Positions 2,850-50,440 of a stretch of DNA of 64,000 nucleotides are shown here, one piece after another. Location: positions 17,834,903-17,898,902 of the forward strand of contig CP099845.1 in assembly GCA_030062745.1 (NCBI GenBank). Direction: 5' to 3'. Position numbers and translations under genes: made by a program. Positions within the stretch are counted from its first letter, which is position 1. Each line of letters starts with the position of its first letter. The stretch is from Capitulum mitella (lineage: Eukaryota; Arthropoda; Thecostraca; Pollicipedomorpha; Pollicipedidae). The notes under the pieces were generated by a model. It saw only the letters and a program-made list of their open reading frames with translations. It was not told the origin of the DNA and did no database searches.

Positions 2850-4064
2850 TTAATCCTATTCCCGGCAGGGGGGTGAATCCGCCCCCCTCGGGGTTTTTTG
2901 CTTGCCAATGCCAGGATTTTTAATGCAGCTTCACGAAACGTGGCCACTTTTCCTAGTTATTCTTTCTACGCGTTGTGACAAAATTTCACAATTCTACTTT
3001 GCTCAGGAATGGAGCCAGGCAACGTTTTTGGGAGGCACCTCAAGCCATTTTTGGACATGTTCAGGGTAAAAGGAAAATGTCTGCCAAAAACAGAGTTTTT
3101 AAGATAGAACTTAAAATTTTATATGGATGTGTAGCTAAATAGCTGGGCAATGTGTAAACAAAATTTTGTTTATCTGAGATCACTTTACAAGGTCAGGTCA
3201 AGGTCAAGTCAAAACTTTTTTTTTTTTGCAATAATTTTGGCGCCATTTTTTTAAATGCCAAACACGGAATATATATGACGCAGAACGGGTGCCCTCTACT
3301 TGTGTACCAAGTTTCCGCTTGATATCAGGTCGGGTCACGGAGCTGTGACCTAAAATGTCAGTGCGCGTACCCTATATCGCAATAGCCATAAAATGAAATT
3401 TTTGAAATAGAGTGAATTGAAATGATTGCAAACGTTTACAGATAATATCAAATGCACACGAGATTATTCCAGGTGACTCCAAGGTCACTGGAGGTCATTT
3501 AAGGTCAAAGGTCACAAGTTGATCTGAAGAACGTGTGACCATGACAGTTCCCACTTTTTCATGTCCCTGGCACCGCCTATGCTAACATTATACAAACACT
3601 GTAATAGATTTGTACTTCTTTAGCATACCATGACTAGCAGAAGCCAAAAAAGTGCTCTTGCCCTTTTTTTGTTCATTCAGTTGTTAAAAAACTAACCCTC
3701 CTATTTTTGAAACCCTGTGAACGCCCATGAATTTTTTCAAACTTTCAGATTTGTGGATCCATGGTAAAAGCCCTATCCATAATCTCTCGATTCATGCCAG
3801 TTTCATTGATATCGGTCAAAAAACAACGGAGTTATAAGAAGTCCAAAAGTAGCCCCCCCATGTTAGACATTTTGCTCCCCTGCATCCATAAATTTCGAAA
3901 TTTTGAAAATATCTTTTTATAAAATGTAGTTCACGTCACGGCAAATTGATTGCCGTTTGTTGCGATGAAATTGGACGAGTAGTTCTCGAGATCTCAGGGG
4001 GGGGGGAATCCGCCCCCCTGCCCGCAATCGACCATATCGTCTAGCCCTCCGGGAATAGGGTTAA
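2850..4064 (+). mobile_element. Family 1 piggyBac-like non-autonomous element, copy 1
   Basis: This is a 1,215 bp element bounded by TTAA on both sides (2850-2853 and 4061-4064). The left end reads TTAATCCTATTCCCGGCAGG and runs straight into a G-run/C-run hairpin. The right end carries the inverted terminal repeat CCGGGAATAGGG, preceded by a ~23 bp spacer and a second copy of the hairpin block. There is no open reading frame, so it must depend on a transposase from elsewhere. TTAA targets and ends starting CCC are known piggyBac traits; membership is inferred from these. It contains AGGTCA half-sites, including a perfect direct repeat with one-base spacing at 3502-3514 and TCAAGGTCA at 3198-3206. 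Confidence 0.88.
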
Positions 4065-4189
4065 ATAAAGTCGAAAATGGTCTTTGTCGGTGCTGGGGCT
4101 TTTGCCACGATTATGGGAACAAACTGCTTTCTCTGTGTCACAGTTACTTCGGTTATACATGTAAAAGCTACGATGCGATGACAAATGCA

Positions 4190-4197
4190 TACAATGG

Positions 4198-4249
<52 letters not shown>

Positions 4250-4262
4250 GGCATATATGTAA
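4190..4262. repeat. (TA)n microsatellite
   Basis: An almost pure alternating TA tract is interrupted by a few C or G bases. A shorter related tract (TATATACATATATATATATA-like) lies at about 4818-4850. Short frames read through it encode only Ile/Tyr runs and are not genes. Confidence 0.9.
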
Positions 4263-5080
4263 CAATATATTGCACATGTTTAACAAAACATGTCTTAATG
4301 AGAAGATAAGGCCAAAGCACACTACGATATATATATCAATACTAGGATTTAACTTGAAAGTGGCCTGGTGCCGAAAGGAGGCGTCACCGGTTAACAGATA
4401 TTTTGCAGTAACGTGTACAGCCCAGTTTCTCCTGGCAAAAACAAAGCTATTTCTATAAGCATGTCCTCACTGCATGTAGATAAGCGGCACTCTGGCGGCC
4501 TCTGGTCAGCCGAGACATGCATTCCTCTCCGACCACAGGCCCGGAGAAGCATAAACAAAGCCCTCTCCGTCTGGGATCGCATGACAGGGCTAATCTGACT
4601 ACTGCTGGTGTGGGTTTCCCCGCCTGTTCGTCTTCCCTTCGACCGAGTCTTTTTGGCCACCAAGAATCCAGGCTTCTGCAACACGTGATCGATAACACCC
4701 AGACAACGGCTCAGATTTTCGGCGCTTGCGTAACGCTATGGCATCAGCTGTCATCAGGAACGCGGGAAAATTAATGGAGATGGATGGATGAGTGCTATCG
4801 ATGGCTATCGATACCACTCATATATACATATATATATATACGTACATATACAACCGTACATGTAAGCCCTCCAAAGCGATGATATCGGTTCATCATGCAC
4901 GAGCCAATCGCTGACTCGACCACGGCTTTAAATTGCCCTGGAATGTTTCCGTGACTGATCACAACGTTAACTCGGCTCGGGGTCACAGAGTGCATATGTT
5001 GTGTCAATGCCCGCGCCGGCCGCCATATTGCAGGCCATTTATAACTTGAGGCAAGTGAACCTCAGTGACGCATTCCCACA
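4263..5080. other. Region without recognisable genes
   Basis: This stretch between the microsatellite and the minisatellite zone holds only short chance frames and the small AT tract near 4818-4850. I see no conserved motif, RNA gene or element end. Confidence 0.4.
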
Positions 5081-5289
5081 GTGACTTCATCAGAGGCGCG
5101 CCAAGGGGTGGGGTTGGTGCTGAGAAGGCTGGAGCTCCTCCCTGAGCTCAGAGGAGCCCCCTCCTACCCAAATCCGGTGCCCCTCTGTGCGCAGTGCGGA
5201 GGGGCCCCTGCTTTGGACTGGATGGTGCCCCTCCGCGCGTTGCACGGAGGGATTTCCCCACTGCTCTGCCTTGGGGCTCCATGTGCAAA

Positions 5290-6130
5290 GGAAGGGGCAA
5301 CATTAATAGGAGCCCTCTCTACAAAGGGGCTATTTTCCAGTCAAGGCTACTTTACTAGCTAAGGGGTTCTGCTGTTCAGTGAAGGAGGCGCTTCTCGCCT
5401 CCAAAGAGGGCCAGTGCCGGCTTGCAGAGGGTCCCTGCCGTAAAGCGTCCTTTGCCGCTCTGCAAATGGCCTCCTGCGGACCTGTAGAATGGCTCTATGA
5501 AGAGACCTCATGCCAGCTAGTGAAAGGTCCCTGCTGGCCCACAGAGGGGCCCTGCTGGCCTGTAAAAAGTCCGTCTATGGACACGTAGATGGACTCCTGC
5601 TGCCCTCTAAAGGGCCCCTTGCTGCTGGCCCTACAGACCACGGGACGCCCCGTTGGCCTGCTGACTTGTAAAGAGGTCCTCTGTTGACCTGTAATGAAAC
5701 CTTCTGCCGCCCTGGAGAAAGGCTCCTGCGGACTCGTGGAGATGACCCTGTAAAGAGCCCCCAAAAGCCGACCCCTAAATGGATTCTGCATGGCTGTAAA
5801 GGAATCGTTCTACATACCAACTTGTAAAAGAGCCCAAGGCGTCCTGCAGAGTGATTTCCACCAGGCATTACAGCGTCCATGCCTTCCTAAAGGGCATCAG
5901 TGGTCTCCACCTGGCAATACAGGGTCATACATGTCTTCCTAAAGGGCATGCGCTGGTTTGAAAATAGCACGGCCCCTTTAACAAGTCAAAGTGTTCTTTC
6001 TGCAACGAAGGGGCCGTTGCTGATCTGTAAGGAGGATCACTGCTGGTCCATATGGGACCCGTGCTAAGCTGTGAAGGAAGCCTCTGTGGACCTGTGAACA
6101 GCAAGAAACCGCTATAGAGGCCATCATATC
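5290..6130. repeat. Degenerate ~21-23 bp minisatellite, array 1
   Basis: A loose unit built around CCTGTAAAGAGGCCCTGCTGG recurs many times at roughly 21-26 bp spacing, for example around 5461-5640 (CCTGCGGACCTGTAGA, CCCTGCTGGCCCACAGA, CCCTGCTGGCCTGTAAA). Units are strongly diverged and spacing drifts, so this is an old array. Frames of up to about 100 codons cross it on both strands, but they are periodic by-products and show no coding signature. Confidence 0.65.
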
Positions 6131-6505
6131 CGATAACGTTTAGCACCGTGTGGAATTCTATAACAAACCGAAACTGGTGTCCATAAATGCACTTGAGAAT
6201 TTTTGAACAATTTTGATTTAATTTCTCTCTTCCGTCAGACGCATTTTTTGCCTTTGCGCTCTTTGATGTATGTGGTGCGAATCAGGCCCTCGCTGATCTA
6301 CAAGGGCGGTCTGAGCTGAAAAGGAGGCTTCCGTGTACTTGTAAGTAACATGAACCTGTTTCGGAGGCCGTCGGATTCCACAGCATTTCATGCTATGTGA
6401 CATTCTAATAAAATTAAAATTGATGTCCATGAATACAGAGCGAACAGTTTGATTTAATGACTCGTTCCTGTGGGACGCGTTTCTTGTCTGTTTTTTCTTT
6501 CTGCG
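6010..6505. repeat. Diverged ~247 bp tandem duplication
   Basis: Two similar blocks start at about 6119 (AGGCCATC) and 6366 (AGGCCGTC). Each runs through a 'TGTGACATTCTA/TGTGGAATTCTA' segment, a 'GGTGTCCATAAATGCA/GATGTCCATGAATACA' segment, 'TTTGATTTAAT' and a 'GACGC(A/G)TTT' segment in the same order. This is an imperfect tandem duplication that begins within the end of minisatellite array 1. Confidence 0.6.
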
Positions 6506-6524
6506 CTTTTCTTGTATGTGCGTG

Positions 6525-6575
6525 TGCGTATGAGTGCGTGTGTGCGCGCGCGTGTGTGTGTGCGTATGTGTGTGC
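6525..6575. repeat. GT-rich simple repeat
   Basis: This is a run of alternating GT/GC (for example GTGTGCGCGCGCGTGTGTGTG-like) with potential to form Z-DNA. It is non-coding. Confidence 0.8.
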
Positions 6576-7640
6576 CATTGAGGATGAAAGCATAATGTGC
6601 TAGAACAAACCAGCTTCTTCTCGTTTTCTCAACATTTCTGATCAGACGGGGTGTGAAGAGGTATAGGACTATAAATCACGCTTCCATGGTTTGTCATGCA
6701 TAATGCAATATTAGCTCCAGAAACATCTACTGAAAATTACAACGATTTGAACATTCTTAATCGTCAGACAAAAAATATGGTCCACAGCAAAACGTTAAAT
6801 CGTCGCTTTCAGAACCACCATTCAGTGCGCACGCAAAAGGCATAAATGATCTCGCACTGAGAGGAAAAACAGGGCTCATGCAGGAAAAGTGTCGCACATT
6901 ATGTACATGAAATACATGAAATTGTCGCTGACCCCTGAAATCGGAGGACGCTCGGCCGAAGGCCTAACCCTCCCCCCTCCCGATGGGAGGATCCTGGGTG
7001 CGCCGCTGGACTTGATCAAACCAATGCCGGGCCGTCGACCTTGCTAGTATGTTATAACTGTCCAGTGCGTTACGATAGTGAGGCCTCCGCGAGGACTTTG
7101 AGCACGTGTGCCGCTTTGCTGCAGACCAATATAATGATACGGACGTTCTTTGATTTCGAGCTGAACCGGGACAAGCGAGACCGAGGTGCAAACGATTATC
7201 ACTTTACCGATATTATCGCTGTATAATGATCGTCGTTCGTGGCTTCGCGAGCCACGAAAGCGTGAATTGACTACGATCAACTACCGCTTCATGACACATC
7301 TGTCGCTGGGTTGTGCGATGATCGACAAACACACCGTCATGACAGCAACGGTGCCGTCTTTTATTATGTAATGCAATCATTGTATCGTGGCTCTGCACGG
7401 GTGACCCCGGCGGGGACGGCGTATGGGTACACCCGACTGAGGCGACCCCACGCCGCCGACTGGGGGGGGGGGCTTTTCACTCTTCTCATCGCCTCGTACT
7501 GCTGTCAAACGCAATGTACAATGCCACTTTCATCACTTGCAAAGGACTGAAAACCCCAAGAGATGCTGAACGCTTTGACATGGCGCGTAATTGACTGGCT
7601 ATCTGAGCCTGCCAAATGCCTCGTATGACGGTCAACGCGT
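6576..7640. other. Region without recognisable genes
   Basis: Only short overlapping frames are present. Nothing resembling a gene, RNA or transposon end was identified. Confidence 0.4.
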
Positions 7641-7649
7641 TCTGCGGAG

Positions 7650-8110
7650 CGCACCAGGATCGGAATACGCCGCGTCGCGCCGGCACCCCCCCCCCCCGCT
7701 CCCCGCACGTCGGCCTGTAATCCGTCACGCGCTCGTCGCGCTAAGCCGGCGGTACGTGGCCGCGCGCCCGCGCCAGTGCCATTCGCCGCACGGTCGGCGT
7801 TGGCTCGCGGGTCGGCCCTCAGACGTAGAAACCCGGCCCGCGGCTGGCGGCGGGAAGACCGCCATGCCGCTGGCTGACGGGCCGGCGGCGGCGCGTTCCC
7901 ACCGACAACGGTCTCCGGCGTGGGCGGCACGTCCGGGAGGCCGGGCCCGGCTCCGTTACGGTGCGGCAGTTTGGGTGACGCGCCGGAATGGCCGCGGACT
8001 CGCCACGCAGCTGGAGCGGAGCGTGGGCGCCGGAACAGGCGCAGGCTGGTGGGCCGCCGTGGTTCGTGGGCTGCGCATCACTCATTTTCGCCGACCTGAA
8101 CTCGAGCGGT
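7650..8110. promoter_or_regulatory. GC-rich, CpG-dense island of unknown role
   Basis: CG dinucleotides are dense here compared with the flanks, and long frames are open on both strands (195 codons on +, 141 and 104 codons on -). That is what GC-rich DNA does by chance. I see no signal peptide, domain or convincing splice pair. In this window the two supported genes sit in similarly GC-rich islands, so this may mark an unmethylated promoter or a missed exon. That is inference. Confidence 0.3.
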
Positions 8111-9059
8111 TGGCAGAGGCGGCTAAAGGGCACTACATGACGTCAAGGCTGGTGACATCGGCCCTCCGGCGCAATTAAACAGGGGTTTCCACGACGAGGC
8201 GACAGGAGAGTGGCGTGGGTGTAAATATGCCTGACGTTCTGATGCAAGCCACGTTCCCAAGCGCGACCTCCTTGCTCACTGACGCAGACTCATGCAACGC
8301 TCAGAGGCCGTGCGTCGTAATCTACACTGGCGTGGCATTTATCTGTGCAGTCTCTGACTGACTGCTTGCTGAGGAAGGTGTAGTAGAAAGCACAAGTGAG
8401 TGTTTTACGTATTTCGGGCCTCTTTTATCGCGTTGTGCAACGTTTTTCGCTTAACGATAGCGCACTACTGCACGCATTGGTCGCACCAAACTTAATACCA
8501 TTTTGTGAGCAGTTTTCCACGAAATTCGCCTGTCCCTTCCCCTTTATTTTTCCGAAAACTTGGCTTTGAAATTCCAAATTAGCTAGAAAATATGCAGGTT
8601 TTATTTTTTCGCATCAGTCCCTGCGACGTTGCACGAACAATATCGCCACGACATAGATTTTTGCAGAAGTCTACGAGTATTTTGGTCTAGAGGGATATTT
8701 TACCTGCTGATGAAATGACAGTAAATTATTACGTTTCGTTAATACATTTTATTTGAAAGCACATAACGTTGTTGGAAATGGTTCTCGAGGAATCAGTCCC
8801 GGAACAGACTCATTTCATTTCGCGTCGGGATCGAATCAGTTTTGGAGACCGCTTGCGATGAAAATCAGAATCGATTCAGCAAGCCATAAGTCGGATTCGG
8901 AATTTATTCCCCCAAGTGGAATCAAGGACAAGTTTAGTGGGGAGGGGGGGGGCAACGAGGTCTCGTTACAAACGTTAACCTTACCTGCTCCATAGTTGAG
9001 GACAGCGTATCACACCGTACCCCGCAGCGAAACCTAAAAATCCATGCAAAAACCAGTAC
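8111..9059. other. Region without recognisable genes
   Basis: AT-richer sequence without a supported gene, RNA or element boundary. Confidence 0.4.
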
Positions 9060-11010
9060 CTAATCCAGGATTTACTCGGGGGGGGGGGGAGGAGCGAATG
9101 ATCAGCGCGGGCCACCTTTCCGTCCGCCCCTCCTTTTTTGCTCTGCAAACTGAGAAAAGTTGATCTGCTCGAGTCTATAGAGAAATATTTCGCGTAATTT
9201 TGCTTTTTTAATTACATAAAGTGACCGAAAAAATCCAAGCGCATCACCTTGTCCGAGAAAAAAAATCGTTTTGTTCCCGTACACAGTGGCCGAAACATGA
9301 CAAAACATAGCGGGATTTTCTCTCTCTCTTCATCTTTGTTTGAAATGTCGTGTCCGTATCTGGTCCAGGAGCCTCTCTGTCTCTCATCGTTGCTGGAGAC
9401 TGTTCTGTCAGATAAGGTTAAGTTTTCTCGTGCACTTACAAGGGCACTTTTGGTGGTCTCGGGCCGTCTGCCGTGTCAGGGCCCTGTAGTGGTCTCAGTT
9501 TTCTTTTGAAGTTTCACTTGTCCTCGGGACATCTCAGACGCTTCTTTGGCAGTTTCAAGAGCACCTTGAACAGTTTCAGGGACCCATCTGGCAGTCTCAG
9601 GGACGTTTAACCCTATTCCCGGAGGGCTAGACGGTATGGTCGATTCCCGACAGGGGGGGGGCGGATTCGCCCCCCCCCGAGATCTCGAGAACTACTCGTC
9701 CGATTTCATCGCAACAAACGGAAATCGATTTGCCATGATGTGAACTACATTTTTATAGAAAGAAATTTTCAAAATTTTGAAATGTGTGGGTACAGGGGGC
9801 AAAAATGTTAAAATCAGGGGTATTTTTGGACTTCTTATAATTCCATTGTTTATTGACCGATTTCAATGAAACTGGCATGAATCGAGAGATTATGGATAGG
9901 GCTTTTACCATGGGTACACAAATCTGAAATTTTCAGAAAATTCATCGGCGTTCACAGGGTTTCAAAAATAGGAGGATTAGTTTTCTAACAACTGAGTGAA
10001 CAAATGAGGCAAAAACACTTTTTTGGCTTCTGCTAGTCGTGTTGTGCTAGAGAATTACAAATCGCATTACAATGTTTGTATAATGTTAGCATAGGCGGCG
10101 CCAGGAACATGAAAAAAGGGGGAACTGTCATGGTCACACGTTCTTGAGATCAACCTGTGACCTTTGACCTTAAATGACCTCCAGTGACCTTGGGGTCACA
10201 TGTAATGATCTCGTATGCATTTAATATTATCTATAAACGATTTCAATCATTTGAATTCACTCTATTTTGAAAAATTTCACTTTATGGCTATTGCGATGTA
10301 GGGTACGCGCACTGACATTTTAGGTCATAGCTCCGTGACCCAACCTGATATCAAATTGAAACGTGATACGCAAGTAGAGGGCACCGTTCTACGTCATACA
10401 TATTCCGGATTTGGCATTTGAAAAAACGGCAAATCTCAAATTATTGCAAAAAAAATAAAAAAAATTGATTTTGACCTTGACCTGACCTTGTAAGGTGATC
10501 TCAGATGAACGGCATTACATCTGCACATTGCCCAGCTATTTATCTATACATCCATGTAAAGTTTAGGTTCTATCTTAAAAAACTCTGTTTTTGGCAGGCA
10601 TTTCCCTTTTACCCTGAACATGGCCAAAAATGGCCTGAGGTGCCTCCGAAAAACGTTGCCTGGCTCCGCCCCTGATAAAAAAAAAATTGAAATTTTGTCA
10701 CGGAGTGTAGAAAAAATGGCTAAGAAAAGTCACCAAGTTTCGTGAAGCTGCGTTAAAAATCCTGGCATTGGCAAGCAAAAAACCCGAGGGGGGCGGATTC
10801 AGCCCCACCCCTGCCGGGAATAAAGTTAAGCCATCTCGGTTTCCCTCCTGTCGCCCTAAGATATTTTTGCCAGCTAAGAAGCCACTCAGGCAATAACACG
10901 GCCCTCCATAAGTCTCTGTCTTGACGGAGACGCCTCTGGCAATCCTTTAGGTCCTTTGGTTGTTGCAGGAAATGTCTAGACGTATCAAGGTTTAGTAGTT
11001 TTAGGAGCAC
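9060..11010 (+). repeat. Segmental repeat copy A, split by a transposon
   Basis: Sequence at 9060-9606 and 10830-11010 matches 12460-13165 block by block. Shared landmarks in order are ATCCAGGATTT, GCGAATGATCAGCGCGGG, AATTTTGCTTTT, the CTTTTGGTGGTCTCGGGCCG segment, the cagtttcag repeats and GACGCCTCTGG/GGCGCCTCTGG. A family 1 element (9607-10829) interrupts this copy and is absent from the other. The start resembles transposon ends of the GGCGGATCCAGGATTT type common in invertebrates. Confidence 0.75.
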
Positions 11011-11700: not shown

Positions 11701-11819
11701 CAATCAGTCAGGCGATCGCCCCATTACCCATCATGGAACCGCCCCCGCAATAAACCAATACCGTACAGACAGAACAGCCTATGCCGTTTTTTAAACTGTC
11801 AACGTTGATGCAGACCGAC

Positions 11820-12350: not shown

Positions 12351-12459
12351 GCCGACAGCGGATGGCGAATACCGACTCCAGGGGCGTAGCCAAGATTTCG
12401 CCAGGGGGGGGGGCAAATCGGATTAAGGAGGCCCCCGTAACCAATGGGGGATCTCGCCA

Positions 12460-13165
12460 AGGGCGGATCCAGGATTTCGCCAAGGCGGGGGAGGGGAAGG
12501 ATGGAGGCGAATGATCAGCGCGGGGGCTCCCATTTTTTTCTCTTCATATAAGAAAAATGAAGTAATTTTGCTTTTCTTGCCAAATGAAATAACCGAAAAA
12601 ATTCAAACTCGTGACCTTGTTTGAGAAAATTCCCCTTTTTGTTTTCGAATAAAGTGGCTGAAATATGATAAAAACTTAGGCGGTTCTGTCCCTCCCTCCA
12701 TTTGAAATGTGGTGTTTGTATCTGGTCCATTAGCCCGTCTGTTCCCCCCCCCCCCCCATCTCGTAGCTTCTGGGATTTTTTTTGTCAGCTTTAGTTTAGG
12801 TTTCCTCTTGCAGTTATAGGGGCACTTTTGGTGGTCTCGGGCCGTCTGCCGTGCCAGAATCCACTAGTGGTCTCAGGTTCTTTTTACAGTTTTAAGTGTC
12901 CCGCGGGTCGTCTGAAATGCTCCTTTGGCAGTTTCAGGGGCACCTCGAACAGTCTCAGGGACCCACTTGGCAGTTTCAGGGACGCTCAAGTCATCTCGGG
13001 TTCACTCCAGTCGTCCTTGAGACGTTTTTGCCGTCTAAGGAGCCCCTCAGGTACAAAAAAGGCTCTCTATAAGTCTCTCTCTGTCGTGACAAAGGCGCCT
13101 CTGGAAATCCTATAGGTCCTCTGTCCGTTTCAGCAGCCTGTACGTCTCAAGGTCTAGGTGCTCAG
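12460..13165 (+). repeat. Segmental repeat copy B (empty site)
   Basis: This is the uninterrupted counterpart of 9060-11010. It begins GGCGGATCCAGGATTT, contains GCGAATGATCAGCGCGGG and the 21 bp cagtttcag series, and carries the pre-insertion target TCAA at 12986-12989. Long C and T homopolymers lie near 12740-12785. Confidence 0.75.
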
Positions 13166-15305: not shown

Positions 15306-16528
15306 TTAACCGTATTCCCGGCGAGGGGGGGCTGAATCGGCCCCCCTCGGGTCTTTTGCTTGCCAATTCCAGGCTTTTTAACGCAGCCTTACAAAACTTG
15401 GTGACTTTTCCTAGCTATTCCTTCTACGCGCTGTGACGAAATTACAAAATTCTATTTTGCTCAGGGGCGGAGCCAGGCAACGTTTTTGAGAGGCACCTCA
15501 GGCCATTTTTGGCCATGTTGAGGGTAAAAGGAAAATGTCTGCCAAAAGCAGAGTTTTTAAGATGGACCTTAAAACTTTATATGGATGCATAGCTTAAAGA
15601 GTTGGGCAATGTGCAGTTGTAATTTTGTTCATCTGAGGTCACTTTACAAAGGTCAGGTCAAGGTCAAAAGTCAAAATTTGTTTTTTTGTGGTAATTTCGG
15701 CGTCTTTTTTTGAATGCCAAGCCCGGAATATATATGATGTAGCATGTTGTCCTCTACTTGTGTACCAAGTTTCAGTTTAATATCAGGTCGGGTCACGGAG
15801 CTATGAACCTAAAATGTCACTACGCATATCCTATGTCGCAATAGCCATAAAATGAAGTTTTTCAAATAGAGTGAATTCAAATAATTGAAAACGTTTACAG
15901 ATAATATTAAATGCACACGACATCATTCCAAGTGGCCCCAAGGTCAATAGAGGTCATTTAAGATCAAAGGTCACAAGTTGATTTGAAGAACATGTGACCA
16001 TGACAGTTTCCCCTTTTTCATGTTCCTGGCACCGCCTATGCTAACATTATACAAACATTGTAATGCGATTTGTAGTTCTTTAGCATAACATGACTAGCAG
16101 AAGCCAGAACAGTGTTTTTGTCTTTTTTGTTCATTCAGTTGTTAAAAAAACTAATCCTCCTATTTTTAAAACCCTGTGAACGCCCATGATTTTTCTCAAA
16201 ATTTCAGATTTGTGTACCCATGGTAAAAACACTATCCATAATCTCTCGATTCATGCCAGTGTCATTGAAATCGGTCTATAAAGAACGGAGTTATAAGAAG
16301 TCCAAAAATGCCCCTGATTTTGTTATTTTGGCTCCCCTGCCCACATTTATTTCGAAATTTTGAAAATTTCTTTCTTATAAAAATGTAGTTCAAGTCATGG
16401 CCAATCGATTGCCGTTTGTTGCGATGAAATCGGATGTGTAGTTCTCGAGATCTCAGGTGTGGACCGAATCCGCCCCCCCCCCTGCCGGGATTCGACCATA
16501 CCGTCTAGCCCTCCGGCAATAGGGTTAA
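15306..16528 (+). mobile_element. Family 1 piggyBac-like element, copy 3
   Basis: This 1,223 bp copy is bounded by TTAA (15306-15309 and 16525-16528). The left TIR is TTAACCGTATTCCCGGC and the right end is spacer-type, ending CCGGCAATAGGGTTAA. Internal order matches the other copies, including the highly conserved CCAATCGATTGCCGTTTGTT block near the right end. The one-base-spaced half-site pair is decayed here (AGATCA-A-AGGTCA, 15961-15973). There is no coding capacity. Confidence 0.9.
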
Positions 16529-18330: not shown

Positions 18331-19555
18331 TTAACCCTACTCCCTGAGGGCTAGACGGTATGGCCGATTCCCGGCAGGAGGGAGGATTGGCCCCCCCCCC
18401 GAGATCTCGAGAATTACACCTCCGATTTCATCGCTTCAAACGGCGATCGATTTCTATGAAGTAAATTACACTTTTAAAAAAGGAAGTTTTCCAAATTTTG
18501 GAAGGGGTAAGTCTAGGGGGGGGGGCAAAAATGTCAGAATGGGGTATTTTTTGACTTTTTATGACTCCGTTGTTTATAGACCGATTTGGATGAAGTTAGA
18601 ATGATCGAGAGACTATGAATGGGACTTTTACCATTGGTAGACACATTTTAAATTTTCATAAAATTCAAAGACGTTCACAGAATTTCAAAAATGGGATTAG
18701 TGTTTCAACAACTGAATGAACAAAAAAAGGTAAAAACGTTTTTTTGGCTTCTACTAGTCATATTGTACTGAAGAAGCACAAATCGTATTACGATCTTTGT
18801 ATAACATTAGCACAGACGGTGCCAGGGACATGAAAAGGGGGGAACTGTCATGGTCACATGTTCTTCAGATCAACTTGTGGCCTTTCACCTTAAATGACCT
18901 TCAGAGACCTTTGAGCCACTTGGAATGATCTCCTGTGCATTTAAGATTATCTGTAAACGTTTTCAATCAAATGAATCCACTCTATTTCAAAAATTCCATT
19001 TTACGGCTATTGTGAGATAGGGTACGCGCACTGACAGTTTAAGTCATAGCTCCGTGAACCCAACCTGATATCAAGCTGAAACTTGGCACACAAGTAGAAG
19101 GCACCTTCCTACGTCATATATATTCCGAATTTGGTATTTCAAAGGATTGCGCCGAAATTAGTACTATAAAAGCTAATTTTGACTTTTGACCTTGACCTTA
19201 CCTTGTAAGTTGACCTCAGATAAATAAAGGTGTATTTGTATGTGTCCCCACTATTTAGCTATGCATCCAAGTAAAGTTTAAAGTTCTATCTTAAAAACAC
19301 TATTTTTGGCAGTCATTTTCCTTTTACCCTCAACAGGGTCCGAACGTGACCTTAGGTGCCTCTCAAAGACAAATTGCCTTTGACGTGGCTCCGCCCCTGA
19401 ACAAAATAGAACCTCGAAATTTGTCCACAGTACGTACAAAGAATAGCTTGGAAAAGTGACCAAGTCTCTTGAAACTGCGTCAAAAACCCTAGAATTGACA
19501 AGTAAAAAAACCGAAGGGGGGCCGATTCAACCCCTCCTGCCGGGAATAGGGTTAA
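18331..19555 (-). mobile_element. Family 1 piggyBac-like element, copy 4
   Basis: This 1,225 bp copy is in reverse orientation, with TTAA at 18331-18334 and 19552-19555. The spacer-type end starts TTAACCCTACTCCCTGAGGG. The simple end closes with CCGGGAATAGGGTTAA. More diverged than copies 2 and 7 across the middle, and its half-site pair has decayed (TGGCCT-T-TCACCT). No open frame of note. Confidence 0.9.
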
Positions 19556-31993: not shown

Positions 31994-33244
31994 TTAACCC
32001 TATTCCCGGAGGGCTTGACGATATGGCCGATTCCCAGCCGGGGGGATTCAGCCCCTCGAGATCTCGAGAACTACACATCCGATTTCATCGCAACAAACGG
32101 CAGTCGATTTACCACGGTGTAGCCTACATTTTCATAAAAACAAGTTTTCAAAATTTCGAAAGGAGGGGATAGAGGAAGCAAAAAGTCAAAATGGGAGATA
32201 TTTTTGGACTTCTTATAACTCTGTTGTTTTGTGGACCGATTTCGATGAAATTGGCATCAACCGAGAGGTTATAGATGGGATTTTTACCAGTAGTCCATAC
32301 ATTTCATATTTTGAGAAATCATAGGCTTCCGCAGGGTTTTAAATATAGGAGGACTAGTTTTTCAAAAACTGACAAACAAAAACGAAGATAAAGCGCTTTT
32401 TGGCTTCCACTCGTCACGTTGTGCTGAAGAAGTACAAATCGTATTACAACGTTTGTATAATATTAGCAAAGGTGGTGCCTGAAAAAGGGGAAACTATCAT
32501 GGTGATATGTTCATCGGATCAACTTTGAACCTTTGACTTTAAATGATCTCGAATGATCTTAGAGTCACTTGGGGTGATCCTGTCTGCATTTTGTATTATT
32601 TGAAAATGTTTCAGTCATTTAAATTCACTCTCTTTTTTTAAGTTCTATTTTACGGCTGTTGTGGTGTTGGGTACGCGCACCGATATTTTAAGTTATAGCT
32701 CCGTGACCCGACCTGATATCGACCTGAAATCCGGCACAGAAGTAAAGGGAACCCTTCTAAGTCACGTGTATTCCGTGTTTGGCATTTGAAAAAAATACCA
32801 AAATTATTCCTATAAAACCAGCTGCTGACTTTTGACCTTGACCTGAACTTGTGAAGTGATCTCAGACATACAAGACTGTATTGTACTTTGCCCACCCATT
32901 TACCTATATCTTCATATAACGTTTTAAGTGCTATCTTAAAAGCCGTATTTTTAGCAGCTTTTTTTCTTTTACCCACAACAGGGCCAAAAATGGCCTGAGG
33001 TGCCTCCCAAGAACGTTGCCTGGCTCCGCTCCTGAGCAAAATAGAATTTCAAAATTTTGTGGCAGCACACAAAAGTCATCACTAGGAAAAATCACCAAGT
33101 TTCGTGAAGCTGCGTCAAAAACCCTGGAACTGGTCATTGATTGACTGATTGATGGTAAATTTGCAATTACATACAGTTGGAAATGGCGAACAAAAAATCC
33201 GAGGTGAGCGGATCAACCCCCTCCCCTGCCCGGAACAGGGTTAA
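31994..33244 (-). mobile_element. Family 1 piggyBac-like element, copy 5, beside a promoter
   Basis: This 1,251 bp copy is bounded by TTAA (31994-31997 and 33241-33244). The spacer-type end TTAACCCTATTCCCGGAGGG comes first. The simple end reads CGGAACAGGGTTAA. It is longer than its relatives because about 50 bp of extra sequence interrupts it at roughly 33135-33185. Its outer edge is only 127 bp from the ATG of the three-exon gene on the + strand, so it is part of the promoter-proximal DNA. Its half-site pair is decayed. Confidence 0.9.
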
Positions 33245-33727: not shown

Positions 33728-34031
33728 TTAACCCTGTTTCAGTATGCTGGGAAGGGGGAAACAGAAGTCGTCCCTCCGAATATTTGTTCGGCATTTCCAG
33801 GGTTTTTGAAGAAGCTTTACGAAGCTTGGTCACCTTTCAAACCTATTCTTCTTAGGTATTTGGAAAATTTCTGTAATTATATTTAGCTCAGGGGCGAAGC
33901 CAGACCATACCTTTAGGGGGCCATTTTTGGCACGAATGAAGGCACAAGAAAAATGGGCGCCAAAATAGCTTAAAGCTTATGTATATATACACAATATAAA
34001 CACTAATGTAAACTTAAGTTTATATTAGTGT

Positions 34032-34081
<50 letters not shown>

Positions 34082-34577
34082 TTATGCACTATTACTAACT
34101 TAAGTTTATATTAGTGTGTAACACTTTATATTAGGCCAATGACTGAGTAAACATAAGAATAACTATGTAGGTCAGAGACTATTTCAAAAGATCAACTGAA
34201 GGAGAAAAATGAAAACTTGTCTTTTTCTTAAATACTTTTGACGTTAATTTTTCAGATACGGAATACAGATTATACGTAGCTCAGCACAGTGTCCGTTTCT
34301 TGTTTCTTAGCTTTCAGGCTGATATCCGATCGGATCACGGAGATATGACCTAAAATGTCCGCAGACCTACCCTATACCACCATGGTCACTCCTCTGTCCT
34401 ACCTGTACGTTATTTCGAAACGTCTTTAAGAGGAAATGTAGCTTACGTTATGGCCAATCGATTGCCGTTTGTTGCGATGAAATCGGGCGGATGGTCCTCG
34501 GGATCTCAGACGGGCCGAAGGAGCCTCCCCGATAGGGAAATGCGTACTAGCGTTAGGGCTACGGGAATGAGGGCTAA
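33728..34577 (+). mobile_element. Old, shortened family 1 element
   Basis: The ends are diverged (TTAACCCTGTTTC on the left; CTAA at 34574-34577 on the right). The order of blocks still follows family 1: TCCAGGGTTTTT, a GAAGCTTGGTCACCTTTC segment, CTCAGGGGCGAAGCCAG and the exactly preserved GGCCAATCGATTGCCGTTTG block near 34452. The middle is missing and replaced by a (TA)n expansion, so length falls to 850 bp. It sits in intron 1 of the + strand gene and indicates that the family has been active over a long period. Confidence 0.75.
34001..34079. repeat. Imperfect palindrome and (TA)n microsatellite
   Basis: A 30 bp near-palindrome (34001-34030; arms CACTAATGTAAACTT and AAGTTTATATTAGTG, 14 of 15 pairs) is followed by a (TA)n tract. 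One arm pair is repeated just beyond the tract at about 34100-34115. Such AT-rich palindromes are unstable, which may explain the expansion. Confidence 0.8.
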
Positions 34578-40890: not shown

Positions 40891-41093
40891 GCGGCGTGGC
40901 GTTGTCGGGCGCGTGTGGGCCCGCACGCTCCTGCGCCCGGGGCGCTCGCTGACAAAACGTTCTGCTGTCGCCTTGGGCTGGCTCAGACGCCTTGCAGTTG
41001 CGGCCGTGGGGGGACCGCGTGCTGAGATGTTATGTCTTCTGCAGGTCGTTTAAATACTCGCACGGATGATTGGTGTAGCTGAACAGACGCTCA

Positions 41094-41099
41094 AATAAA
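41094..41099 (+). terminator. Poly(A) signal of the + strand gene
   Basis: AATAAA lies 204 bp after the stop codon of the terminal exon, in a stretch that has dropped back to AT-richer composition. It is a sensible 3' end for the transcript. Confidence 0.6.

Positions 41100-42702: not shown

Positions 42703-42753
<51 letters not shown>
42703..42753. repeat. (TA)n microsatellite
   Basis: Nearly pure TA alternation. A second tract of the same kind lies about 300 bp downstream (43010-43070). Confidence 0.9.
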
Positions 42754-42755
<2 letters not shown>

Positions 42756-43009
42756 AAGCTAATGATCTACAACCATCTTTCGTTTAGGTGTGCAGGGGAT
42801 CGATTGGTATTTTTTTGAGAGGGCCTTGGCCCACCCAATTCTGATTTGCCCCCATACTGGTTTGCCCTTCCCCCCAATATTTTCTGCCGGTCGGAAAGGG
42901 AAATGAGCAATAACAACGAGAAAAACGGCCGCAACAGATAAGATATAGCAGAAAGCAAAGAATAAAGTCTAAAGCGATTTATCTATTTATCTTTCCATCT
43001 TATATATTA

Positions 43010-43055
<46 letters not shown>

Positions 43056-43070
43056 TATATATATATATGT
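43010..43070. repeat. (TA)n microsatellite
   Basis: Nearly pure TA alternation interrupted by a single GC near 43052. Confidence 0.9.
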
Positions 43071-45094
43071 GGATAAATGCAATTTTTATCCGATAAAGAG
43101 TAACAAAAAAAGGCTTATGGATTTTCTTTGGTCAGTTTTTTCGGCCCAAATCCGTTGAGAAATTCACATTTGGGGAAGGTTAGGTTATCAGGCCTTCGGC
43201 TCCACCCCCCAATCGTTCACAGCAATCGACAACCCTGCACGTGCGTACGTTGGGGTATTATTTTCCTGCTTTGTGCATGTTTTCAAGTTAGTCTTTAACC
43301 CAGAACCTCCTTGTGTGGGCCGGCTATGTTCCTTTCATAAGTGTGCAGTCAAAACCATGGGGGTGAATATTAAATTGAAGTGTTTAAAGGGCTGCAGCTC
43401 TCTAATGGCCAAATGGTTCCGTCGCCCTGCTTACGGACAGCAAAGACGATCACCATTCGCTCGCTTTAAGAAATCGTGATGCCAGATACCTTCCATCATG
43501 CTTCCGAACCCTAATCGTCATAAAATTCCTAAACCACCACAATACAGTAGGTGATTGTATGCGTAACCTAGGTTTCAGTCTTCTGGAATCCTTGTTGCAA
43601 AGTCTTCATTAGCAAGATTATATTTCTAACCGTCATCGGACGATGGCGTGTGGTTGCCAGCCACTGACAACAACGGTTGATTAGTTTTTAAAACGAAGTC
43701 GTCGTATAAGGATGATTTACAAACCTTCACAAGTAAAACTCCTACGATGACAGCGAAGACTGCAAACGACGTGAAAGTCTCCTTCAGTGTGACCTGAAAG
43801 GTCACGCCGCGCTCTGAAGAATCCAGGTCGAGCAGCATCAGATTCGGAAAGAAAAGGCTGTACGCTTGTTTTTGCTTCGTCTCTCTATCGCAGTCAGATG
43901 CAAAATGTAGGAAAGGTGGCACCCCCTCTTTTGAAATGGATTACAGTTGGATTTCCGCGCAGGATCAAACCCAGATTACATCAAATGTTTCTATGACCAT
44001 TTAAAGGCAAGTCAGGATTGCATGGGGGCATCCTGATCAGAGGGTGAAATCATCGTTTCCTTGCCGTTTATCACATATGTGCGACGTTTCCCTTCAAACC
44101 TGCTGAACACTTGCCTTGAATGAAAGTTTCCATGGCTACCGCATAGCCTGATGGACGCAAATTATGCGGTTCCAGTGCACGACCTGTAATCTCGGGGGAG
44201 GCGGAAGGGAATGTTCCGTAACCCCCAATATTCAGCGATTACAACATTAGGCATATGCCAATGACTGGAAAGAAACGGTATGAAATCCCATGTGGACCCT
44301 CCCCAATATAATTTCCGGAAAACTCCAGCTATTTCAACAACGAAATTTGTGTAGTCCGATTGCGTCTGCGCGATTGGCAAGCATTGGTTATAATTTGCCA
44401 TTTTGGGCGAAGAGCGGATGGACGAATCTTAAAGGTCTTCATACACCAAGTTCCCATTGCCTGGGAAGAATGGGTGGAGCGAATCTGAGTGAATAATCCA
44501 TTCCAAACGAAACTGACGTCCTTGTACTGCACGAAATGACGTTATGCGGTTTAAAAACACACAACGCCGCAGTTTGCTGCAAAATCTACACAAGAACTAC
44601 ACGACAATCGTCCAAGAAATTGGGATGGCCTCTGCAAAAGACCTCAGGTATCAGAATGGCCAACGTCAATTTAGAGGAGGATGCAGTGGCTAACTTGAGG
44701 AAATGCCTGGTTGGCAGCTCACCAATAGCAACCAACTTTTTATCCCGGTTTCCTCTGGCATTTTTTCCATTTCTTAACCCGGATGTCCCAAACTGGATTC
44801 ATTTCAAGGAACAAAAATAATCCCATCGTAGGAATTCCACTAATGCCCCGTCTAATCAGCCTATGTCAGCGCAGGGCGATACCAGCATTAGAGCTTTTTG
44901 TGGTCTTGGGGCTTTTTTTATGACTAGCAGCAGGGCTATATCCTTTTTGATACAAGAATGGAAACAACACAACATGATCTCTTTATATATTTATTTGCAT
45001 CAAATCGGACAAATTACAAATTCCACCCCGGATGTGACGTGGCCCCCAGCAGCGCATGATTCAATCTTGCGATCCCGTTTCATTTCACCGGCTC

Positions 45095-46298
45095 TTAACA
45101 GTACTCCCGGAGGGCTAGGCGGTATGACCGATTCCCGGTGGGGGGGGGGGCGGATTCGGCCCCCCTGAAGGTCTTGAGAACTACACATCCGGTTTCATCG
45201 CAACAAAAGGCAATCGATTTGCTATGATGTAGGCTACATTTTTTTGAAAAAGAAGTTTTCAACATTTTGAAAGGAGGTGGATACAGGGGAACAAAAAGTC
45301 AGAATGGGGGATATTTTTGGACTTGTTTATAACTCTGTTGTTTATGGACCGATTTTGATGAAAATGGCACGAATCAACATATTATGGATGGGAATTTTAC
45401 CATTCGTCGATACATTTCAAGTCCTGAGGAAATCCATGGGCGAGGGTTTCGAATGACGGGAGGATTAGTTTTTCAAAAAATGAATTAGCAAAAAAGTTAA
45501 GAACAATTTTCTGGGCTTTTACTAGTCATGGTATGCTAGAGAAGAATAAATCGTCCTACATTGTTTGTATAATGTTAGTATCGGCGGTGCCAGCGTCATG
45601 AAAAAGGGGAACTGTCAGGACCACATGTTCAACTCACGACCTTTGACCTTAAATGACCTGCAGCGACCTTGGAGGTCACATGAAATGATCTGTAGTGCGT
45701 TTCGTATTGTTTAAAAACACTTCCAATCATTTCTATTCATTTTATGTCTAAAATTCCGTTTCACCGCTGTTGTGCTCAGGGTACCCGCAATGACATTTCA
45801 AGTTACAGCTCCTTGACCCGACCTGATATCAGCCTGAACTTGGTACACAAGTAGAAAACACTCTTCTACATCATGTATATTTTGAGTTTGTCATTTGGCA
45901 AAATAGTGCCGAAATTATCCCCAAAACAAATTTCGGCTTTTGACCTCGACATGACACTACGAATTAATTTAAGATTAACAAAATTACATTTGTATGTTTG
46001 CACAACTATTTACCTATACACCCACGTAAAGTTTCAAGTCTATCGCAAAAACGCTATTTTTGGCAGGTATTTTCTTTTACCCCCAACAGGACCAAAAATG
46101 GCCTGAGAGGCCTATCAAAAACGTTATCTGGCTCCACTCCCTGAGCAAAATAGATTTAGGATTTTTTTGTCAAAGTACGTAGAAAGAATAGGTACGAAAA
46201 GTGACAAGGTTTCGTGAAGCTGAGTCAGAAATCCTGGAAATGACAAGCAAAAAACCTGATGGGGCGGATTCAGCCCCAACTGCCGGGAATAGGGTTAA
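45095..46298 (-). mobile_element. Family 1 piggyBac-like element, copy 6
   Basis: This 1,204 bp copy is in reverse orientation with TTAA at 45095-45098 and 46295-46298. The spacer-type end is mutated (TTAACAGTACTCCCGGAGGG). The simple end is intact (CCGGGAATAGGGTTAA). The half-site pair is one base off perfect (CGACCT-T-TGACCT, 45637-45649). Confidence 0.9.
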
Positions 46299-48145
46299 GC
46301 ATGAGGGATGCTTCACACATTCTGAAAGATAACACGACATAAGCCACTGATAGCAGCGAGCATGAGTGAACATACGCATATTGACGGAACGTATTTAGAC
46401 GAGAGGCAACTAAATTTAAGTCGACACTGACTGGGTTATTACGTTTCCTAGGTACTGGAGGAAAGGGATTTTTGTCTCCTTCCCTGACTCTAAAATGGAA
46501 GGTCCGATTTTTATTATTTAAACGGTATTGGACAGCCCGTCTCTCGAGTCCCAGGCGGCAGCTGTCCTACATTTATTGAACTGAGATAGCCGTTGGTGTC
46601 ACAGGTCAGGTCATCAGGTCAGGTCATCCTTATATCTGATGATTATTTGTTGGCCCTTCAGAAGCAGTTTTGGATGATATATATTTGTTTTTTGATATAC
46701 ATTTGTTTTGATCAGAATGATAGGAGTTGGCTGTATGTGGCATAAAATGAACTAGTTTCAAAAGAAAGCAATGAACTAGTTTTAAAAGAAAGCATTTTGT
46801 TTGTAAAACGTGACCTGAAATCAGCCGAGTTCATGACGTCAAATGAGGCCATTCCCTTATCTTTGAGCTTTTGCATGTTACTGATGCAGAATATCACAAC
46901 AAGCTCAAAATAGCATTTGTCTCTCGGTATCCGGAATACCTCGGTTGCTGGAGCCGCAGATGGTCAGAGTCTATTTGTCTCAGAAAATAGGCTAAATTGA
47001 CACTGTAAGGTTAGCAGCTGACTGACAATGACCTGACTTGTGCTGACTTGTGACTTTCGGAGCCTGGTGATTGGCCTTTGCGTCATCCTTAATGAGCTCC
47101 TTGCAAATCACGCCAAGAGAAAAATGGACACCAGAGGCTGAAGAGCGTTTGTCCCGTGCAGCATAGCGCATGTCACCAGATGGATCCTGGGCCTGCTTTA
47201 ACTTGTTAACCGGGGGAGGGGGAATCCCCCGCAGATGACCGTAAATCCCCCCCCGTAAAGGCGAAAGCGCCCCGCAGTGAGATCGGCAAAATAGAATTTA
47301 GCTTTAGGAAATGAGGGGGATACTTCTCACAAATGCGAAGAAATGAAATAATTTCGCAATTACATTTTTTCTGGTAATCCTTACTGCATTTTAGTTCTAG
47401 CAATTATGTTGCTTACCAACGCATGTTCAGAAGTTAAGCATATATGTTCTGACCAGTTAGGGCAGGCATGGTATGAAGCAGACGTGCTGAGCAAGCTGCT
47501 GATGATTCAGTGGCGTATGACTGACCACTCAGCTTTACTTAACACTCATCGCGACTTTGTCCAAAGCCAGTGGGTCTCTGCCAGCGATGTTGCCTAGTGA
47601 AAGACTGTTGCACGACATGGGCTGACCGCTGAAACATAGCCTTGTTACATGAAGACAAAATGTACTGCATTAGGCTTGCAGAAGGCTGCAGTTATTTAGA
47701 TCTATACAATTTGCAGTTTACCCTAAGCTTCAGGAACTTTCAGACATATTTGGATTAACGTCCTACGAAATGATTCAGCTTCACAAATAAGGGCATTTTT
47801 CTGATTGTGAAATAAAGTGCTGGCTTAAGTAACCGAAGCACAGAGAAGGCTGGGGACTTTTCCCTGCTCCCCATGACTGATGAAAGAAAAATGAAAAATC
47901 AAGACTTCTCTGTGGGCATGACTGGAAACTTCCGGAAATTACATATTGTGAGGGAAAGGCAAACAGGATTTCAGACCCTGTGTTTATAACCATAGCCATA
48001 AACCTATTGTTAAAATCTCTGTAAAGTATGGGGAAGGGTTGAGACTCTTCTGTGAACTACATTTAAGCAAGCAAGCATTGAGAACTCTGATTTTCATCGA
48101 CTGTATGACTGCGTTTGCTTGTTTCTCCCGCTCCTTCCTTTTGAA
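46299..48145. other. Region without a supported gene
   Basis: AGGTCA motifs occur at about 46600-46625 (GGTCAGGTCATCAGGTCAGG). TTAACCGGGGGAGGGGGAAT at about 47206 with a following CCCCC run resembles a piggyBac-type end, but no partner end was found. Confidence 0.35.
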
Positions 48146-48149
48146 TAGG

Positions 48150-49200
48150 GTACAGCTAAAGTCATTTACAACGAATCCGCTTACGAAATTCGGCCGTAGC
48201 CAGGAAGCTTGTCTAGTGATCTCAGAATTCGATGGGAAAAGTCGGATATAACGAAATTGGCTATAACGAAGCTTTGTTTTCTACAGGACTAAGCTCCATG
48301 AGATTTAGCGCAATTTTCGGTCAAGTTGAAAACTTACGATCCTCTGGCCAGTATTAAAGAGGACAAAAATTATTCAGGAGTAAGCGAGCAAAACGAAGGA
48401 ACGCCCAGCGAAACAGTGAATGAAAACCAAAGTGCTGAAAGCTTGCTTGCTTCCTTGAACGTAATTCAGGGTAACTCGTCAGTTGTTTCGTTGATCAACC
48501 ACCTTGGAACGCAGGGAAATGTCTCGAACATACTCAGTGTTTCAGCCATGATTGAAACCCGTAATATCATCTACTTTTTAAACGCTCTTGCTTAAGAATA
48601 TGAATCATCTCGAAAGACCACGGAACCCACAAGACGAAAATTCTAGAGAAACTTCCCGTAGGGGAATTGGATAACTATGCACATTTTTCATTTCATTAAA
48701 CGAACTGCATTGTTCTGCAGGTCAAATGTAACTTTTTTCCTTTCATTCGAAATGGAAGGGTGCCTTGGAGACCAGCCAATTTTGTGCGACAGCAGTTATC
48801 AGCCGGCTTGCTGGCAAAGACCCACTGACTGAAGACGAGATAAAGTTGCGGCAAAACTTAAGTGATTTTATGTTAAAACATGTATCAGTCACGAGAAGTC
48901 CACCGATGCCAATTCAGTCATCAGTCGTACATCTTGGGAGTTAGGACAATGGAAAACTTATCCACGACGTGTGTTTCAAAAGCTAAAAAAGCTAGAGGAA
49001 GCAAAACATTTGTGCTATAGCGTGGCCAGGATACTAGCTTCATTGCTCCTTGCTTTTCTGATGTCTTTTAATCTTACATACATTTTGATTTTAGCTATCT
49101 GTTTTGTGACTTTGGCTATAACAAAGTCCGCTTACGGCGAATTTCCATGCATATACCCTCGAACTCGTTATACATGGATTCAGATGTAAATGGTCTGCCT
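48150..49200. repeat. Possible decayed pogo/Tigger-like DNA transposon remnant
   Basis: TATAACGAA occurs twice at 48247-48270, with ACAACGAATCCGCTTACGAA nearby. A related block (TATAACAAAGTCCGCTTACG) occurs at about 49117. Repeated TATAACGAA motifs are typical of the ends of pogo/Tigger-type Tc1/mariner elements. An 89-codon frame between them (48326-48595) has no clear domain. The blocks are in direct rather than inverted order, so this is tentative. Confidence 0.25.
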
Positions 49201-49216
49201 TAACGATACAGTCACT

Positions 49217-50440
49217 TTAACCCTATTCCCGGCAGGGGGAGGGACTTAATCCGCCCCCCCTCGGGTTTTTTGCTTGCCAATCCCAGGCTTTTTAACGCAG
49301 CTTCACGAAACTTGGCGACTTTTCCTAACTATTCTGTCTACGCGCCGTGACAAAATTTCAAAATTCTATTTTGCTCAGGGGCGGACCCAGGCAACGTTTT
49401 TGGGAGGCACCTCAGGCCATTTTTGATCATGTTGAGGGTAAAAGGAAAATGTCTGCCAAAAACAGAGTTTTTAAGATAGAACTTAAAACTTTATATGGAT
49501 GTATAGCTAAATAGTTGGGCAATGTGCAGATGTCATTTTGTTTGTCTGAGGTTACTTTACAAGGTCAGGTCAAAGTCAAAATCAAAATTGGTTTTTTGCA
49601 ATAATTTCGGCGCCGTTTTTTCTTTTATGCCAAACCCGGAATATATATGACGTAGCACGATGTCCTCTACTTGTGTACCAAGTTTCAGCTTGATATCAGG
49701 TCGGGTCACGGAGCTTTGACCTAAAATGTCCGTGCGCATACCGCGTATCGCAAAAGCCGTAAAATGAAATTTTTGAAATAGAGTGAATTAAAATGATTGA
49801 AAACGTTTACAGATAACATTGAATGCACACGACATCATTCCAAGTGTCCCCAAGGTCAATGGAGGTCATTTAAGGTCAAAGGTCACAAGTTGATCACAAG
49901 AACGTGTGACCATGACAGTTTCCCCTTTTTCATGTCCCTGGCACCGCCTATGCTAACATTATACAAACATTGTGATGTGATTTGCACTTCTTCAGCATAA
50001 CATGGCTAGCAGAAGCCGAAAAAGTGTTTTTGTCTCTTTTGTTCATTCATTTGTTAGAAAACTTATCCTCCTATTTTTGAAACCTTGTGAACGCCATGAA
50101 TTTTCTCAAAATTTCAGATTTGTATACCCATGGCAAAAGCCCTATCCATAATCTCTCGATTCATGCCAGTTTCATTGAAATCGGTCCATAAACAATGGAG
50201 TAATAGGAAGCCCGAAAATACCCCCGATTTTGACATTTTTGCCCCCCCCCTGTATCCACACATTTCAAAATTTTGAAAATTTCTTTTTATAAAAATGTAG
50301 TTCACGTCATGGCCAATCGATTGCCGTTTGTTGCGATGAAATCGGATGTGTAGTTCTCGAGATCTCAGGGAGGGGGCGAATCGGCCCCCCCCCCCGCCGG
50401 GAACTGACCATACCGTCTTGCCCTCCGGGAATAGGGTTAA
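49217..50440 (+). mobile_element. Family 1 piggyBac-like element, copy 7 (well preserved)
   Basis: This 1,224 bp copy has near-consensus ends: TTAACCCTATTCCCGGCAGG on the left and CCGGGAATAGGGTTAA on the right (50425-50440). The right end has the spacer and second GC hairpin. A perfect AGGTCA-A-AGGTCA lies at 49873-49885. It is one of the better copies for building a consensus. Confidence 0.93.

Follow-up and report, generated by a model that had tools for sequence, protein, structure and literature searches.

The stretch of DNA analysed here, hereafter the window, comprises 64,000 nucleotides of the genome of the barnacle Capitulum mitella (contig CP099845.1 of assembly GCA_030062745.1, positions 17,834,903 to 17,898,902 of the forward strand) and is populated by copies of a single family of TTAA-bounded elements of about 1.2 kb. 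Seven copies are full, an eighth is truncated by the end of the window, and a ninth, 0.84 kb long, is old and internally deleted. The full copies measure 1,196-1,243 bp, flanking TTAAs not counted, and family sequence, old copy included, occupies 15.1% of the window (9,657 of 64,000 bases). TTAA is found on both sides of c1 (2854..4060, plus strand, 1207 bp), c2 (9611..10825, minus strand, 1215 bp), c3 (15310..16524, plus strand, 1215 bp), c4 (18335..19551, minus strand, 1217 bp), c5 (31998..33240, minus strand, 1243 bp), c6 (45099..46294, minus strand, 1196 bp) and c7 (49221..50436, plus strand, 1216 bp), among which c4, c5 and c6 belong to an older layer. Copy c5 carries an internal insertion of ~50 bp close to its left end. 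The right tip of c6 is decayed and reads CAGTACTCCCGG; therefore, a motif scan alone sets the start of this copy 28 bp too far in. The nearest to the consensus among the seven full copies is c7 (93-94%). The window end cuts c8 (63682..64000, plus strand), leaving its first 319 bp with TTAA on the left, and the old copy (33732..34573, plus strand), flanked by TTAA and CTAA, has lost profile positions ~533 to 1024.

Four of the eight copies c1-c8 lie on the minus strand, and all 15 of their in-window flanks are exact TTAA, a tetramer that starts at 0.4% of window positions. With up to two mismatches, the tip motif of the family occurs 17 times in the window versus 4.25 expected, the maximum of 100 shuffles being 13. 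The seven full copies share 74-89% identity pairwise and 81-94% with their own consensus. The original prediction, made from the sequence of the window, had announced seven full copies, one partial and one old copy making up about 15% of it, with full copies of 1,204-1,251 bp bounded by TTAA or a derivative. The same inventory was obtained here, the predicted lengths are ours plus the two TTAAs, and the flanks agree, CTAA beside the old copy being the only derivative. The extent that it gave spans c1 to c7 and leaves c8, which starts at 63,682, outside. ARAGORN and Rfam scans of the window gave no match, nor did a Pfam search with six of its long open reading frames (ORFs).

The two ends of the element are similar at their tips and unequal further in. 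The consensus (1,206-1,207 bp) is bounded by terminal inverted repeats (TIRs) of 12 bp, CCCTATTCCCGG, both ends starting with CCC; in c7, these repeats are located at 49221..49232 (plus strand) and 50425..50436 (minus strand). From the left tip inwards, the order is CCCT, ATTCCCGG and a palindrome-like block made of a G-run and a C-run, the whole subterminal block extending from element nt 5 as ATTCCCGGCAGGGGG..CCCCCCTCGGG (49225..49265, plus strand, in c7). From the right tip inwards, CCCT and ATTCCCGG are followed by 20 bp (AGGGCTAGACGGTATGGYCG), then by a subterminal block located 33 nt in from the tip (50361..50404, minus strand, in c7), in which the tip motif ATTCCCGG is repeated before the same palindrome-like block as on the left. 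The start of the block, nt 5 at the left end, moves to nt 33 at the right end, a shift of 28 bp. Block positions were read in 19 complete or partial copies, taken both from the window and from other parts of the genome (L070 in reverse; the partial copies L046, L046b and L053 give one end each), with up to two mismatches tolerated in 9 positions. All 17 readable left ends have the inner block at nt 5, and all 18 readable right ends have it at nt 33.

Stop-free stretches of the consensus reach 82 aa at most, and comparison of the consensus and the seven full copies with three transposases of the same genome revealed no likeness, the best E-value being 2. Therefore, the family is non-autonomous. 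Absence of coding capacity, homogeneous size and very high copy number are features of miniature inverted-repeat transposable elements (MITEs). As MITEs are usually <500 bp (PMC2872659) and the consensus reaches 1.2 kb, the family can be called 'MITE-like' at most. The seven-copy consensus also contains eight occurrences of AGGTCA, the nuclear-receptor half-site, versus 0.5 expected in shuffles, and single copies contain two to eight. They lie at element consensus nt ~337-663, for example at 49557-49886 of the window. A perfect DR1 (AGGTCAAAGGTCA) is present in the consensus and in three of the seven full window copies. Outside the copies, AGGTCA (75 in 54,343 window bases) is also above the shuffle rate, a control that cautions against making too much of the enrichment.

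Insertion of the element duplicates TTAA. Indeed, three insertions (c2 and those at two loci elsewhere in the genome, L059 and L054) have element-free relatives with a single TTAA-like tetramer at the junction. After removal of the element and one TTAA, c2 aligns with a paralogous empty site at 12562..13157 (plus strand) without any gap across the junction, TTTAAG facing CTCAAG, so that TCAA stands at the empty junction. Both sites belong to a second repeat of ~0.6 kb, unrelated to the family, whose two members (9194-9610 plus 10830-10995, split by c2, and 12562-13157) are 73% identical. Treated in the same way, L059 gives a gapless junction against L051, L055, L056 and one place in L050, with TCAA opposite TTAA; L055 displays ~36 extra bases 10 bp upstream of this junction. 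The element of L054 is located within decayed piggyBac sequence, and the six relatives tested (L027, L045, L047, L049, L052 and L053) all align through the junction, at 81.6-83.5% identity over ~600 bp, with TTCA in five of them and TTTA in one. These empty relatives are paralogues at 73-88% identity, not alleles, and therefore provide evidence of insertion, not of excision.

The family extends far beyond the window. In the whole genome (477 Mb, 16 contigs), the exact 12-bp tip was found 7,473 + 7,374 = 14,847 times, versus 12 + 15 = 27 for a backward-pattern control, and 6,640 + 6,585 = 13,225 of these tips (89%) are preceded by TTAA, versus none in the control. Among the plus-then-minus neighbouring tip pairs in the first 100 places, 36 out of 39 are spaced by 1,164-1,238 bp, the remaining three being 9.9, 66 and 79 kb apart. 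The family may account for ~2% of the genome, as tip counts point to at least 7,400 copies of 1.2 kb. A DNA search with c7 gave 9,799 first-look candidates, and scoring 40 of them yielded nine partial and 40 full-length rows, the latter made up of c7 and 39 others with 89-91% identity. In a 15-row alignment, 11 rows differ from the consensus by ~4-8%, and c4, c5, c6 and L001 by 14-19%; four more copies, all top matches of c7, are 95.5-96.4% identical to the 15-row consensus. These aligned rows are a non-random sample of the family. Their divergence suggests that the family probably spread in at least two rounds and that, as far as the copies seen can tell, it is not very recent. Furthermore, tip-TTAA-tip junctions (at most one mismatch), at which two copies adjoin with only one TTAA between them, occur 95 times genome-wide, for example at G000:C1:38909418-38909445, the pattern being self-complementary so that each site is found on both strands. 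A uniform model, with ~10^4 insertions and ~1.9 million TTAAs extrapolated from window density, roughly predicts some tens of them; the excess is about twofold, it may be due to clustering, and self-targeting is not claimed.

Taken together, these data make it very probable that the elements are non-autonomous DNA transposons of the piggyBac type that reached a high copy number. The basis for this assignment is the structure of the ends and the target site; a partner protein plays no part in it. Duplication of TTAA is common to piggyBac and Kolobok (PMC9587614); here, it is combined with TIRs that start with CCCT, in line with the piggyBac hallmark tip CC[C/T]T as given in PMC2872659. The 5' tips reported by a survey of animal piggyBac elements are CCCTC, CCCTT, CCCAT and CACTA, with TIRs that are mostly short (PMC10813416). 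The strongest added point comes from the 28-bp asymmetric layout, which favours piggyBac as a supporting, not a diagnostic, character. According to PMC7351741, the minimal ends of the piggyBac element of Trichoplusia ni (T. ni) are 35 bp on the left and 63 bp on the right, a difference of 28, and in both the cysteine-rich domain binds a 19-bp repeat of palindrome-like structure. The same source describes bp 34-63 of the right end as almost identical to bp 7-35 of the left end, i.e. shifted by 27-28 bp, the right end carrying an insertion plus a duplicated segment. The agreement with T. ni on the number 28 may be due to chance. The original prediction, which had seen a TTAA-bounded, piggyBac-like family, is upheld by the 13,225 of 14,847 tips at TTAA, the empty relatives, the CCCT tips and the asymmetric subterminal layout.

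Several observations weigh against this assignment. Exact TTAA is absent at 1,622 of the 14,847 exact tips (11%), and one tip of L001 adjoins CGAG rather than TTAA. The empty relatives all lack an exact TTAA (TCAA, TTCA, TTTA or TGAA instead), as would be expected if only the TTAA-bearing relative was targetable or if the tetramer changed later; moreover, TGAA, found at a second place in L050, has a gap adjacent to it. As the interior bears no likeness to the three transposases compared, an origin by internal deletion appears to lack support. The ends of piggyBat, as described in PMC11707139, do not have piggyBac's pattern, and the shifted block was not seen in families A and B, the two multi-copy autonomous piggyBac families of this genome; therefore, the layout is not a superfamily-wide signature. 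Finally, none of the 55 transposase loci read holds an autonomous element with the family's tips as its own ends.

These 55 loci (L009-L038 and L041-L065) comprise 52 located at PF13843 matches, of which the genome has at least 118, and three (L055, L056 and L057) reached via protein A only. For L009-L038, the flank examined was ~1.5 kb per side, so that a partner with long non-coding arms might have escaped there, and tips were searched with up to 3 mismatches in 16; for L041-L065, the threshold was 4 in 16, with follow-up of the matches that had at most 3. The original prediction had proposed as a check a longer element that bears these ends and encodes a DDE_Tnp_1_7 transposase, and the loci read contain none; an autonomous relative of a superfamily other than piggyBac, which it had named as contrary evidence, did not turn up either, though none was specifically searched for. 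The partner is lost, too decayed, among the unread loci, or another family acting across family lines.

The best 30 of the at least 118 PF13843 matches correspond to 14 loci of family A, 15 loci of family B and L027 alone. Family A elements are 2.9 kb long, with tips CCCATTAACGCCCA and an intact 588-aa frame in L010. Those of family B are 2.67 kb long, with tips CCC[A/T]TTAGTGCCCA; in L019, the protein counts 523 aa from the first listed start, inside a 612-aa open frame. Both families look autonomous (L010 and L009 for A, L019 and L022 for B): some copies keep an open transposase frame, and the elements are flanked by TTAA at either end. Three other families, D, E and H, are decayed.

Tips of the 1.2-kb family do lie near transposases in L017, L024, L046, L053, L054 and L059, where each is part of an ordinary copy, be it nested, interrupted or adjacent; the tip fragments in L026, L031, L041 and L057 likewise come from ordinary copies. 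In L017 (G000:C14:7029047-7033156), one copy is split into two parts by a 2.66-kb segment in which a DDE_Tnp_1_7 frame is intact. This segment is a nested family-B element and not the autonomous partner, because its junctions show their own tips (CCCTTTAGTGCCCA / CCTATTAGTGCCCA) and TTAA. The nested element, inserted at a TTAA within the copy, has a frame of 613 aa, and an apparent second copy on the far side ends at a shared tetramer, TTAG. The other candidates were rejected too. The family-B element of L024 and the copy next to it have a single tetramer (TTAG) in common at their junction. L046 has a decayed family-E transposase between two copies of like orientation, ~3 kb apart, and the interval sequence adjoining the tips of these copies is no element end of the 1.2-kb family; a probable family-E tip, CCCCTTAAAGATCAG, was read in L048. 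A tip pair 9,864 bp apart on C1 was discarded, the far tip having no TTAA and the 401 surrounding bases no family sequence. Families D (CCCGTTTTA..), E and H (one probable end, CCCTATAGTGCCC) have other tips, as judged on one or both readable ends.

The transposase of L027 is 48% identical to that of family A and its tips were not detected, which also sets this locus aside as partner. L027 (G000:C2:27091099-27092190) displays a stop-free piggyBac transposase frame of 574 aa and has decayed relatives at 80-85% DNA identity; it is possibly a domesticated gene. For two other pairs of loci, L043/L044 and L051/L055, similarity (71-82%) extends well past the transposase, which suggests duplicated regions or gene-like conservation.

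One branch of the piggyBac explanation is that the partner is family A, B, D, E or H, cross-mobilizing the 1.2-kb family. All share TTAA and a CC start with it, and members of A and members of B are ~92-97% identical in DNA in the pairs compared, which makes their age similar to that of the younger layer of the 1.2-kb family (~4-8% from consensus). However, the tips of these five families differ past CCC, the ends of A and B do not have the shifted block, and the family-B element of L017, which has tips and TTAA of its own, is nested in a copy and does not represent a lengthened version of the 1.2-kb family. Cross-mobilization by one of these families is thus a possibility to be kept in mind rather than the expected answer.

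The alternatives to a piggyBac affiliation fare much worse. The elements could derive from another TTAA-inserting superfamily, such as Sola3, or from an undescribed one, which would fit with the 55 loci having yielded no autonomous partner and with an assignment based on DNA anatomy; CCC tips and a 28-bp asymmetric block as in piggyBac, together with the plentiful piggyBac transposases of this genome, make this improbable. Still less credible is a non-autonomous family of the Kolobok superfamily, which also duplicates TTAA (PMC9587614, PMC6004289) and includes very abundant MITEs, such as T2 in Xenopus (PMC6004289). Kolobok termini are described as 5'-RR..YY-3' (PMC9587614), whereas both ends here start with CCC, and AG ends are common to all the full-length copies reported for ten Xenopus genes (PMC6004289). 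A retrotransposon or segmental-duplication family merely situated between TTAAs, for which only the high copy number would speak, can practically be dismissed, since the ends are constant in both orientations, the tips are inverted, the aligned copies have no poly-A tail or long terminal repeat, and the duplicated TTAA with its empty relatives already refutes it.

The family most likely spread as follows. A piggyBac-type transposase would have bound both ends of the element, each through its tip and its palindrome-like block, paired the unequal left and right ends, and moved the element by excision and reinsertion at TTAA. Mobilization in trans of one nearly fixed 1.2-kb unit would then have raised copy number; the near-constant length, with no range of deletion sizes, indicates that a single unit was multiplied. 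The transposase could have come from a family that had these same ends and is now extinct or very decayed, or else from another piggyBac family acting across family lines. Retention of the 28-bp spacing even at 19% divergence is what would be expected if a fixed two-end geometry was needed; this argument is weakened by the fact that shared descent alone would equally retain it. More speculatively, and with the odds rather against it, the asymmetric 35/63-type end might be a recurrent design of one piggyBac lineage also used by the lost transposase of this family, the 28-bp spacing in 19 copies might be a fossil record of a left/right transpososome, and the family might have seeded thousands of AGGTCA/DR1 half-site clusters.

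Other features were noticed in passing. The window contains at 58731-59190 a 350-base T-rich tract with an imperfect periodicity of 8-15 bases, followed by a T-run plus a GCCGGGG repeat. At 60516-62174 (minus strand), it contains a G+C-rich open frame of 553 aa with a start that resembles a signal peptide by eye and no Pfam match. Elsewhere in the genome, L062 (G000:C2:31385400-31390000) displays, at positions 388-1832 of the locus, a 134-base inverted repeat around ~1 kb of tandem repeats, the edge of one arm being at TTAACC; it is possibly a further TTAA element with internal tandem repeats.

The string CCCTATTCCCGG was not found in a literature text search, and a search combining barnacle and piggyBac returned no paper on barnacle transposons, judging by titles and abstract openings. 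We regard the family as newly described and probably of non-autonomous piggyBac type; it is set apart from described elements by their descriptions, and a Repbase or Dfam name may exist. The Xenopus T2-MITE/Kolobok elements resemble it by their TTAA target and their abundance, and differ by AG.. (RR..YY) termini (PMC6004289), which place them in another superfamily. Closer are the CMITEs and AmiPB1-4 of the coral Acropora, which share TTAA duplication and have tips CCCTTTCCCGTCC / CCCATTCCCTGCC.. close to CCCTATTCCCGG, the coral piggyBac tips being given as CCCTTTCCCGTCC, CCCTTTCCCTACTA and CCCATTCCCTGCCACA (PMC2872659). The CMITEs, likened here by description and not by interior sequence, are ~100 bp long with a conserved 75-base interior (PMC2872659), whereas the present family is 1.2 kb long with asymmetric subterminal blocks. 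The Pokey MITEs of Daphnia, mPok1 and mPok2, are likewise non-autonomous piggyBac elements of a crustacean. They average 760 bp, occur in tens of copies or fewer per genome, and have TIRs that resemble known autonomous partners (PMC4912750), whereas the 1.2-kb family has ~10^4 candidates and its partner was not found. As other piggyBac MITEs are reported at 50 to 20,000 copies (PMC4912750), the copy number observed here is high, not unique.

In other respects, the family is a genomic parasite of an ordinary sort. What distinguishes it is that one non-coding family makes up 15% of the window without any visible transposase source. As to ends, the T. ni piggyBac starts with CCC, like the present family. 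Beyond this start and the TTAA target, the likeness lies in the palindrome-like block located 28 bp further in on the right (PMC7351741). The T. ni element is autonomous and encodes a 594-aa transposase, whereas the 1.2-kb family has no such ORF. Furthermore, the TIRs of T. ni piggyBac are 13 bp long, and its 19-bp internal repeat is bound at bp 17-33 of the left end (PMC7351741); in the barnacle family, the tips are 12 bp long and the palindrome-like block, which is longer and G/C-rich, overlaps the tip motif. The 35/63-bp asymmetry of the T. ni ends has been called enigmatic (PMC7351741). The thousands of copies found here are natural variants of such an asymmetric piggyBac end, and the question of why piggyBac needs unequal ends, which structural studies raised, becomes approachable by sequence comparison.

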